From the NCBI GenBank assembly GCA_021789895.1, contig JAJYIU010000024.1, positions 1-63,948 on the forward strand: a stretch of DNA of 63,948 nucleotides, in the 5' to 3' direction. Origin of the DNA: Acidobacteriota bacterium (GTDB lineage: Bacteria; Acidobacteriota; Terriglobia; Terriglobales; SCQP01). The notes under the pieces are model-generated. The model searched no databases. It saw nothing but the letters and a program-made list of their open reading frames with translations, and was not told the origin of the DNA. The position numbers and the translations under genes are program-made. Below, piece by piece: positions 18,685 through 21,595 of the stretch (position 1 is its first letter; every line of letters begins with the position of its first letter).

Positions 18685-19803
18685 ATGGTCGAACTTCAAT
18701 TCAAGACGAAGCCGGACCCGCTGCCTCGCGAGAGGATCGATCCCCAATACGTGCCGCAGTTCAGCAGCTTGGATATCGGCAAGCCGCCCTGGAAGGGCTA
18801 TGGTGTCGGGTTCGTGCTGCAGTGCATTCTGATCGCGCTGATGATCGTTTTCGGCGTCAAGATCGGAAGCCAGAAGATTTTTCACCAGCGCTACGAGACT
18901 TTGCTGTTTCCGGTCACGCCGCCGAAGCCGCCGGCGATCCGTCCCATGCATATGCCCCGGGCATTACGCCGTCTGGAGGCATATAAGGCGCCGCCGCCGC
19001 CCAAGCTGCATGTAATCCATCCGCCCCGGACGCGTCCGCTGCCGAAACCGGCCGCGGTGGTCATGCGCAATCCACTTCGGCTGCCGAAAATCAACTTGCC
19101 GAAGCCCAAACGGATCGTGCGCAAGGTGCATTTCAATTCCAACGTCAGGGAAGCGATGCGCCGCCCTGCGGCGCGCGTGCACACCGGCGCGTTTTTTGGC
19201 GCGCCCACCGCCGATCCGCGGCACCAACTGGCGCCGCGTCAGGTCCAGACCGGCGGATTTGGCGACCCCAACGGCATCCACGGCCCCCAAACCACGCGGC
19301 ATGGCAACGTGACCGCGGTGGGCTCGTTCGGGCTGCCGGAAGGACCGGGGCACGGCAATGGCTCGGGCGGGCGGCATGGGGCCTCCGGCGCCATTGCCAG
19401 TGTTGGCTTTGGCAGCGGCATCAGCGGCGGCGTCTCCAGCGGGCCGGGCGGTTCGGTGCAAAGCGCCGGATTCAACAATCAAACGGAAACCGCCACGCGG
19501 CGGCGAAGCTCGCGCGCGGCGGTGCAGCCGCTGACGCGGAGCGTCGTCATCCTGTACAAACCCCATCCCGGTTACACCGCCGAGGCCCGGGCGAAGCACT
19601 TGCAAGGTGAGGTCTGGCTATCGGTCATTTTTCTGGCCAGCGGCCGCGTGCAGGTCCGGCATGTCATTCAGGGCCTGGGGGCCGGCTTGGATCAATCCGC
19701 CATTCAGGCGGCGCGAGCCATTCGTTTTCAACCCGCTCTGCGCGGAGGCAAGCCGGTGGATTTTCCGGCCCGGATTCGTATCCGGTTCCAGTTGGCGCAC
19801 TGA
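18685..19803 (+). CDS. tonB: TonB energy-transducing protein
   Basis: TonB couples the proton motive force of the ExbBD motor to outer-membrane receptors. The product is 372 residues. There is a cytoplasmic N-terminus of about 38 residues, longer than usual, one membrane anchor (about 41-62, VGFVLQCILIALMIVFGV), a Pro/Lys-rich periplasmic stretch (about 75-140), a Gly/Ser-rich linker (about 190-275), and a TonB C-terminal domain (about 280-372) with YTAEARAKHLQGEVWLSVIFLASGRVQ and FQPALRGGKPVDFPARIRIRF. exbB and exbD are not nearby. The secreted M48-like gene follows 19 bases later. Confidence 0.88.
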   Translation: MVELQFKTKPDPLPRERIDPQYVPQFSSLDIGKPPWKGYGVGFVLQCILIALMIVFGVKIGSQKIFHQRYETLLFPVTPPKPPAIRPMHMPRALRRLEAYKAPPPPKLHVIHPPRTRPLPKPAAVVMRNPLRLPKINLPKPKRIVRKVHFNSNVREAMRRPAARVHTGAFFGAPTADPRHQLAPRQVQTGGFGDPNGIHGPQTTRHGNVTAVGSFGLPEGPGHGNGSGGRHGASGAIASVGFGSGISGGVSSGPGGSVQSAGFNNQTETATRRRSSRAAVQPLTRSVVILYKPHPGYTAEARAKHLQGEVWLSVIFLASGRVQVRHVIQGLGAGLDQSAIQAARAIRFQPALRGGKPVDFPARIRIRFQLAH

Positions 19804-19822: not shown

Positions 19823-21595
19823 ATGTTGCGACGTTTACCGTTTCTGGCACTGCTCATCGGCAGTCTAGGTTCATTCCTGCTTTTACCGGCGCAGACGGCG
19901 AACGCCCCGGCGCCGCCGAGGCAGACGCCGGCGGCCCAAACCCCCGCCCGCAGCGCGCCGGCCGCGACCACCCCGGCCGCCCCGCCTGCTCCGCAAGCCA
20001 ATCCCAATGCGGGCGCGGCGAATGCGGGGATGACGGTTCCAGCCATCATCGACACCATGGCGCGCCAGGAAAAACAGCTTTATCAAACGATGAAGAAGTA
20101 TCACCCCATCGTCGAAACCTACATCCAAAATTTCCGGCTTGATCCGGTGCTCGGCCAGGTGCCGATCAACGATCACTATTACCTGGGGCAACTGAACTAC
20201 AGCCGCGGCATCGCACAGGACCGCTCCTTTTTGAGCAAGCCCGGCTGGGGCGTCGGGATTTTCACCGCCTTGAGCCGTTTTTATTCGTTGCATTACCTTT
20301 CGGCCGGCTTCGTGGACATGCTGTTTCCCGATCCGATGCGTTTCGACCGGAACCATTACCAGTTCAAGTATCTGCGGCAGGATTTTCTCGGCAGCGTGCG
20401 CTGTTACGTCTTCAATGTGCAGCCCAAAAAAGGGGTACACGGAGCCTTTTTAGGCCGGATCTGGATTGAGGCGCAACACCTGCACCTGGTCCGCTTCAAC
20501 GGCACTTTCGTGCCGCAGCCGCTGTTCAGCCGCTACTTCCACTTCGACAGTTGGCGCATCAATACCCAGCCCGGATTATGGGTGCCGGCCTTCGTCTACA
20601 GCGAAGAATCGGACGTGAAGGGATCCACCATGTTCGGCTTCGCCGGGCACGCCCGCTTCGGCGCGGAAACCCATATCTGGGGTTACGGTTTGAACCTGCC
20701 GCAATCCACTTCAACCGCCTCGCAGTTGACCGTGGAGGGAAGGGTCCAGGACCAAAGCCGCGCCGCGGATGCCTATTCCCCGATTCAGGCCGCCCGGCTG
20801 TGGCAGCGCGAAGCCGAAGACAATGTGCTGCACCGCTTGCAGCGGGCGGGCATGCTGGCGCCGCCGGGCCCGGTGGATAAAACCCTGGAAACCGTGGTCA
20901 ACAATCTGGAAGTCACCAACAATCTCGACATCCATCCCCGCGTGCGCTGCCGCGTGCTGCTGGTGACGCCGATGGTGGTCTTCAATATCGGGCATACGAT
21001 CGTGGTCAGCCGCGGGCTGATTGACGTGCTTCCGGATGAGCCCACGCTGGCGATGGTGCTGGCGCATGGGCTGGCGGCAATTGTCAAAGGCATGCCGATC
21101 GACACCAAATTCGCCTTCTACGACCGCATGCTGATCCCCAACGACGAAGTGTTCACCAAATTTCACCTGCAGCATAATCGCGCGCAGGAATCGTTGATCA
21201 ACGCGGAAACCGTGCAGTTGATGGAGAAATCGCCGTATAAAGACAAACTCGACAAGGTGGGCCTGTTCTTAGAAGCGGTGAACGCCCGCGCCCGCGCGCT
21301 GCCGCACCTGATGGGCCCCAATTTCATCGGCAACCCGCTTATTCACAATCAAGTCGTTCAGGGGCTGGGGCCGCTGGTGCAGAAAGGGCCGCGGCTGCAA
21401 TTCGCTTCCTTGAAACAAATCGAAGCCCTGCCGCTGGGCAGCCGCATCCAACTCGAACCCTGGAATGACACGGTGGAGATGCTGCATGCGCCGCCGGTGA
21501 CCTTGTACTCGGCGGCGGAAAAGATGCCCTTCCAGGTCACGCCCCAGCGGCCTTACCTGCGGCGCGCCTCGCAGATGCAAGTGGCGGCCCGCTGA
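19823..21595 (+). CDS. Secreted M48-peptidase-like protein without the zinc-binding motif
   Basis: The product is 590 residues from the ATG at 19823. A signal peptide (MLRRLPFLALLIGSLGSFLLLPAQ) is followed by a Pro/Ala-rich low-complexity linker (about 25-65), then a large domain of unknown function (about 70-360). The C-terminal part has M48 metalloprotease layout: GHTIVVSRGLIDVLPDEPTLAMVLAHGLAAI corresponds to the usual vocabulary around LAHELGH. Here the HExxH zinc site reads His415-Gly-Leu-Ala-Ala419, so catalytic Glu and the second His are missing and proteolysis is unlikely. It may be a periplasmic binding or scaffold protein. Its position directly after tonB suggests an envelope role. 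Confidence 0.65.
   Translation: MLRRLPFLALLIGSLGSFLLLPAQTANAPAPPRQTPAAQTPARSAPAATTPAAPPAPQANPNAGAANAGMTVPAIIDTMARQEKQLYQTMKKYHPIVETYIQNFRLDPVLGQVPINDHYYLGQLNYSRGIAQDRSFLSKPGWGVGIFTALSRFYSLHYLSAGFVDMLFPDPMRFDRNHYQFKYLRQDFLGSVRCYVFNVQPKKGVHGAFLGRIWIEAQHLHLVRFNGTFVPQPLFSRYFHFDSWRINTQPGLWVPAFVYSEESDVKGSTMFGFAGHARFGAETHIWGYGLNLPQSTSTASQLTVEGRVQDQSRAADAYSPIQAARLWQREAEDNVLHRLQRAGMLAPPGPVDKTLETVVNNLEVTNNLDIHPRVRCRVLLVTPMVVFNIGHTIVVSRGLIDVLPDEPTLAMVLAHGLAAIVKGMPIDTKFAFYDRMLIPNDEVFTKFHLQHNRAQESLINAETVQLMEKSPYKDKLDKVGLFLEAVNARARALPHLMGPNFIGNPLIHNQVVQGLGPLVQKGPRLQFASLKQIEALPLGSRIQLEPWNDTVEMLHAPPVTLYSAAEKMPFQVTPQRPYLRRASQMQVAAR

Follow-up and report, generated by a model that had tools for sequence, protein, structure and literature searches.

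A LolA-like/M48-like protein encoded behind tonB in Acidobacteriota, with a zinc site that appears to have been lost repeatedly

What a protein of the M48 metalloprotease type can still do once its zinc site has been broken, and what its gene is doing directly behind tonB, is the question raised by a locus in the 63,948-nucleotide stretch of acidobacterial DNA that was analysed as a whole (hereafter, the window). The first gene of the pair, tonB (18685–19803, forward strand), encodes an N-terminal membrane segment recognized by eye, a Pro/Gly-rich middle and a TonB_C domain (4.2e-14). After a gap of 19 bases, exactly the spacing given in the original prediction, a second gene on the forward strand starts with an ATG at 19823 and ends with its stop codon at 21595, encoding a protein of 590 amino acids (hereafter, the window protein). 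The genes flanking the two on both sides, which are presumably prmC-like and glmM-like (judging from their translations), run in the opposite orientation, so that tonB and the window gene form a separate two-gene unit. Between 18400 and 21900, no sigma-70-like sites are found (shuffled mean 1.1), and terminator-like matches, at five, are close to the shuffled mean of 3.7, so that neither scan is informative. The genome from which the window is taken (G000) consists of 79 contigs, the window being contig C74, and is 95.5% complete; TonB_C is found at only eight places in this genome, one of which is the tonB of the pair, and an adjacency by chance would thus be rare.

The window protein begins with a probable Sec signal peptide (residues about 1–28, 19823–19906, forward strand, as are all features below), read from the sequence by eye, and a lipobox-like motif is found in none of the 69 family rows scanned. 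The remainder can be differentiated by means of an AlphaFold2 model (mean pLDDT 79.1, pTM 0.79) into a Pro/Ala-rich stretch of low confidence (residues 25–69, 19895–20029; pLDDT mostly below 50 up to residue 65), a predicted LolA-superfamily-like domain (residues about 70–296, 20030–20710), an M48-like domain (residues 320–500, 20780–21322), and a C-terminal segment (residues 505–590, 21335–21592) that is common to the family in alignment and model and has no assigned domain. In the M48-like part, residues 323–558 of the model match Escherichia coli BepA (6ait; Z 14.4, 188 aligned, rmsd 3.5 Å) and residues 320–556 match 3c37 (Z 12.5). The M48 context, originally described as well preserved, is therefore preserved in the predicted fold and not in the sequence, in which Pfam M48 (PF01435) reaches 12 bits, under its gathering cut-off of 20.3. 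Among 45 aligned relatives, 26 match the same profile at E ≤ 0.01 (best 4.5e-9), so that descent from M48 is sound, though the window copy no longer scores. Matches to eCIS_core (9 of the 45 members, best 0.0013) and Peptidase_M78 (2 of 45, best 0.0033) are weaker than those to M48 and are taken to reflect a shared HExxH stretch.

The N-terminal domain had been regarded as a domain of unknown function; its model now gives a fold match to the LolA superfamily. Its VIA-align matches are 3buu (Z 9.3, 185 aligned, rmsd 5.8 Å), 4z48 (Z 9.0), 9tp6 (Z 8.7) and LolB 8cm1 (Z 8.5, 138 aligned, rmsd 3.5 Å), and 3buu is likewise the first match in Foldseek (2.2e-4); these structural matches lie at rmsd values of 3.5–5.8 Å and approximately 10% identity. 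A second model, that of a relative with FQIAH at the zinc site (L067, pLDDT 76.0), again matches BepA (Z 13.3), with LolA-type matches at Z 7.5–8.0 that are borderline by the aligner's own scale. A LolA-type Pfam profile (PF17131 or related) matches neither the window protein at E ≤ 5 nor the 45 members at E ≤ 0.01, and all six stand-alone relatives of the N-terminal domain that were scanned match PF17131 (LolA_like) weakly, at 2.1e-5 to 0.0092 and below its cut-off. As a search of PDB sequences with the family profile returns nothing at E ≤ 1, the fold assignments rest on models, and on this fold evidence the N-terminal domain is most likely LolA-like.

In place of HExxH, the window protein carries HGLAA at residues 415–419 (21065–21079); His415 remains, the catalytic Glu is replaced by Gly416, and the second His is replaced by Ala419, precisely the losses that had been predicted. 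The third-ligand position is kept as Glu456 (21188–21190), which hhalign pairs (probability 52%, E 1.4e-4) with the Glu in the ELEAD stretch of an M48-TPR protein encoded by the window genome, and the Asp of the ExxxD context is Asn460. No other HExxH is found over all 590 amino acids, so that an alternative site of this type elsewhere in the protein, which would have spoken against the original prediction, is absent. Moreover, the orthologue in a congener (G001), which is 76% identical, also has HGLAA, and the motif is thus not a sequencing slip. Judged by these residues, the M48-like domain of the window protein appears to be non-catalytic, as had been proposed.

Whether this loss is peculiar to the window was addressed with a wider set of homologues. 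A match to the window protein is present in 59 of 60 genomes searched, the window genome included, with partial matches only in G007 and G034 and a match split over two contigs in G032. A genome collection contains 427 stretches that encode relatives; among the 80 best ones retained, 79 are titled acidobacterial and one Betaproteobacteria, the latter being taken as a labelling problem. In a phylum-wide draw, the family profile matches 90 of 297 genomes: by count from the listing, 37 have a near-full-length protein, two (G032 and G228) have a split or partial one, and the remainder have only an N-domain-like protein, mostly of about 300 amino acids. Altogether, 162 matches were collected from 161 sources, namely the window, 68 regions from relatives, 80 loci from public records and 12 additional regions; the removal of L084 (no site columns), L085 (short) and eight identical duplicates left 152 distinct rows. 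The rows had been picked by similarity to the window from the 60 genomes, the best 80 of the 427 one-pattern loci and the 12 regions of the phylum search; because this sample is biased toward the relatives of the window, the resulting ratio of 87 rows with an intact HExxH to 65 with a broken one is not a census.

Of the 87 intact rows, 84 also keep the third-ligand Glu. The broken rows are heterogeneous: 37 have F, L or M followed by Q or E at the first two places, and the other forms include HGLAA, RGLAA, RGLAD, HELAT, HELAR, HALAR, RELAH, HQLGS and QELAQ. When the motif columns are masked, a minimum of 12 changes from one state to the other is needed on a FastTree tree of all 152 rows, and of 11 on a 96-row IQ-TREE tree, whose rows are a chosen subset from which L177_5 was deliberately excluded; both trees have long branches and lack bootstrap support, and joins of long branches are flagged in the FastTree tree. 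Since HExxH is the ancestral M48 form, these changes are read as losses, and a zinc site originally present in the family appears to have disappeared repeatedly. The clade of the window comprises eight rows (support 100 in both trees), and the most similar intact relative seen, L052 with HELGH, is about 50% identical (49–52%). Orthologues with an intact site, which would have weakened the original prediction, are accordingly present in the wider family (87 of 152 rows) and absent from the window's own clade (0 of 8).

The family is also present in multiple copies. In the window genome, three full copies are seen, all of them broken (HGLAA, RGLAA and HALAR); the RGLAA copy has no tonB in front, and a true M48-TPR gene adjoins it in tail-to-tail orientation (L044:6655-8382 and L044:8636-10492 on G000:C19; M48 1.8e-26). 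Two further contigs of this genome, C37 (L012) and C28 (L013), end within further copies that are 71–72% identical over residues 515–583, so that the number of copies in the genome is probably higher than the three full ones seen. In the congener, two RGLAA copies (L047:5646-7406 and L048:6256-7986 on G001:C29) are 98% identical, stand about 15 kb apart and each have their own tonB, and are the product of a recent duplication of the tonB pair.

The association with tonB, on which the original prediction also relied, is borne out across the family. When the 141 rows with 700 or more bases of upstream sequence are counted, 132 have a TonB_C gene immediately in front, about as often for intact (74 of 79) as for broken rows (58 of 62); without the edge cut, by which 11 rows with less than 700 bases upstream were removed, the count is 137 of 152, some of the rows without TonB being contig edges. 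Shared descent inflates this count. Nine rows have no upstream TonB_C despite enough sequence (L062, L167, L122, L135, L044, L049, L063, L177_5 and L230), and two of these, L044 and L049, are members of the window's clade of eight. The distance from the tonB stop to the following start is measurable in 62 of 69 rows with picked starts and falls between −4 and 123 bases in 58 of them, with three more at 179–198 bases and one at −200, probably owing to a badly picked start. When neighbouring genes are clustered, TonB is found in 136 loci, and the next cluster in no more than 38, the gene itself and antisense frames having been set aside by reading.

A second line of support for this link comes from genomes of another acidobacterial family (f22), in which LolA-like proteins are fused to TonB_C. 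One such protein (L252:3288-4508, G128:C34), a relative of the stand-alone LolA-like protein, has a C-terminal TonB_C (2.5e-9), and matches spanning LolA-like and TonB_C parts occur in 9 of 60 f22 genomes (G128, G354, G334, G362, G337, G082, G348, G374 and G369), that of G354 having one stop inside the matched stretch. A TonB profile built in this work is found in 12 of 52 LolA-like frames, which correspond to nine distinct proteins since two genomes are listed under several loci, and it matches none of the 152 rows of the window protein's family. By eye, the fusions have a signal-like start and apparently no membrane anchor of the TonB type. TonB_C occurs on many exported proteins, and the fusion is for this reason support for the link to TonB and not proof of it. 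As a separate observation, a stand-alone LolA-like gene of the window genome stands directly behind a receptor-type gene (L267:2619-6245, G000:C21; CarboxypepD_reg 6.2e-10, OMP_b-brl_4 3.6e-16); a general placement of such genes beside TonB-dependent receptors was considered and rejected, for a neighbour listing read by eye shows it at 1 of 20 loci, that of the window genome only.

A gene that has lost its catalytic residues may simply be on its way out, and its constraint was estimated by pairwise Nei-Gojobori dN/dS with the first 70 codons excluded, the values being rough because dS is often near or above 1. Between the window gene and its congeneric orthologue, dN is 0.136 and dS 1.212, a ratio of about 0.11; by part, the dN/dS pairs are 0.123/1.765 for the LolA-like domain, 0.116/1.073 for the M48-like domain and 0.206/0.898 for the C-terminal segment, whose constraint is weaker, and the dead M48 domain is hence under purifying selection as well. 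The broken pairs (0.136/1.212, 0.031/0.544, 0.028/1.267 and 0.136/1.552) are not under weaker constraint than three intact pairs (0.015/0.144, 0.317/1.505 and 0.133/0.763), with the exception of the recent RGLAA duplicates of the congener (0.019/0.018, near 1). In the alignment, 75 columns hold the same letter in at least 90% of rows across both intact and broken forms. The mean share of the commonest letter in the M48 core is 0.735 in intact and 0.613 in broken rows, as compared with 0.615 and 0.576 in the N-terminal domain, and of 38 columns in which intact rows reach 90% fixation and broken rows do not retain it, 25 lie within residues 319–500. The M48 core thus seems, from these columns, relaxed in broken rows, yet the gene is not decaying. 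The columns retained in broken rows include G390, T392, I393, S396 and D401, on the strand beside the site, a strand that is read here as lying at or next to the edge-strand of BepA.

This strand is of interest owing to what has been described for BepA. According to PMC8423444, BepA of E. coli has a double role in the assembly and degradation of the outer-membrane protein LptD, and the edge-strand next to its active site touches LptD and is reportedly required for both the chaperone-like activity and degradation. The edge-strand columns kept in broken rows, taken together with this role, suggest by analogy that client holding may be conserved in the family and cutting optional. On this basis, a periplasmic binding or assembly factor that works with TonB, and for which proteolysis is dispensable, is proposed with an even degree of confidence; it would combine a LolA-like pocket with a BepA-like client groove. 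The protein would be exported, its LolA-like half might bind a lipid, an acyl chain or a hydrophobic segment, and its M48-like half might hold an envelope client along the groove at its edge-strand, in the way that BepA holds immature LptD. TonB, if in physical contact with the protein, would provide a link to, or work at, the outer membrane. Proteolysis would be an ancestral extra that was lost many times, with the fold and the partner gene staying in place. An envelope location and a binding role, as originally suggested, are plausible for the window protein.

Several observations count against this proposal. The site is retained in most of the sampled rows (87 of 152), and proteolysis may thus be what the family chiefly does; broken rows show weaker conservation of the M48 core; the structural matches of the N-terminal domain are distant, as their rmsd and identity show; and two of the eight rows of the window's clade lack tonB. 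In addition, the protease-dead BepA variant E137Q is described as promoting LptD maturation weakly (PMC8423444) and as failing to complement (PMC7950410), and since it is impaired, a dead M48 protein is not automatically a chaperone. The active site of BepA is further described as capped by an HPx4R plug, a motif stated to be conserved in Pfam M48 (PMC7950410). This plug is found in none of the 152 family rows, the intact ones included, in the stretch about 35–150 residues past the start of the motif, and even intact members may therefore be regulated differently.

Alternatively, the LolA-like half could do all the work, carrying lipids or lipoproteins to a TonB-linked machine, with the M48-like half retained as a scaffold or lid whose catalytic residues drift; this is a possible reading, though on the doubtful side. 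The larger fall in conservation from intact to broken rows in the M48 core than in the N-terminal domain agrees with it, as do the stand-alone LolA-like relatives that do without an M48 half, some of which carry TonB_C directly. In the window pair, however, constraint is equally strong in the M48 and N-terminal parts (dN 0.116 versus 0.123), and a mere scaffold would have no need of the new letters that the clade of 37 broken rows has fixed around its old site.

It could also be supposed that the broken copies act on an active member of the family within one cell, regulating or titrating it as a decoy or dominant-negative pseudoprotease. The congener, which has four broken copies and an intact one (L050, HELAH), would suit such an arrangement, and so would the window genome, in which the full copies are three broken ones and a BepA-like M48-TPR gene adjoins one of them. 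The 37-row clade with FxxAH-type sites, on the other hand, represents 37 genomes for which no second full-length family match is listed, so that in these genomes the family seems to be represented by the broken protein only, and regulation by decoys is considered unlikely.

The 37-row clade itself, in which His415, Glu416 and Glu456 are mostly replaced (e.g., L067:5950-7809), raises the question of a rebuilt site. Phe415 is found in 32 of its rows and Gln416 in 30, His419 is kept in 36, His451 is present in all 37 (compared with 10 of 87 intact rows), Asp453 in 34 and Ala460 in 37; such fixed letters at the old site look like reuse rather than drift, and a site rebuilt around His419 and His451 is possible in this clade, as far as residue patterns can indicate. 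As a rival reading, this would mean that other residues bind a metal and that the protein is still a hydrolase, a view for which the remaining His415 and Glu456 of the window protein could be cited along with the residues of the 37-row clade. It is decidedly unlikely for the window protein, in which the catalytic Glu, the second His and any other HExxH are missing and in whose clade His451 occurs in only two of the eight rows; moreover, the sets of putative ligands vary among the broken lineages. A decaying gene or an assembly error, which might be suspected from the sub-threshold Pfam score, the 79-contig genome with two contigs ending inside further copies, and the one recent duplicate pair with dN about equal to dS, is highly improbable and largely contradicted by the open frame, the identical motif in a second genome and the dN/dS ratio of about 0.11.

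The proposed TonB-associated binding or assembly factor can be placed among known systems by its parts. With BepA (YfgC), a periplasmic M48 metalloprotease of E. coli with TPR, the window protein shares the M48 fold and, presumably, the periplasmic location, but it has no TPR match, bears a LolA-like domain in front, has lost its zinc site and is encoded by a gene that follows tonB. The fold of residues 70–296 is, according to the model, shared with the superfamily of LolA, LolB, RseB (MucB) and LppX-LprG, from whose members the window protein differs in being fused to an M48-like domain and in having no LolA-type Pfam match of its own. Among TonB_C proteins, the relationship is one of direct upstream adjacency to the window family and of fusion to LolA-like proteins in f22; unlike in those fusions, TonB_C and the window-family protein are products of separate genes. 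Bacterial pseudoproteases such as the pseudo-orthocaspases described in PMC6426788 are likewise prokaryotic, devoid of catalytic residues and kept in evolution, whereas their fold and catalytic class are different, and in the present family the loss recurs about 11–12 times within one gene pair. In the titles and abstract starts of open-licence PubMed Central literature, no description of a pair of tonB with a LolA-like/M48-like gene was found; as far as these literature searches show, the parts are known, and the architecture, the partnership with TonB and the repeated loss are undescribed.

Taken to its furthest extent, the proposed role would be that of a TonB-coupled periplasmic delivery factor. 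Its LolA-like pocket would carry cargo, its M48 groove would hold clients without cutting them, and together with a dedicated TonB it would supply the outer membrane of acidobacteria with lipids, lipoproteins or barrel proteins that are still incomplete. Proteolysis would have been given up about a dozen times, and in one large clade the former zinc site would have been reshaped around His419 and His451 for a new purpose; this full version is speculative and, as a whole, doubtful. If the general proposal is true, evolution has removed the protease activity about a dozen times within a single conserved gene pair, a natural experiment that allows a direct test of whether client holding is the main action of an M48 envelope protease. 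At the same time, a LolA-like/M48-like, TonB-linked factor would be added to outer-membrane biogenesis in Acidobacteriota.
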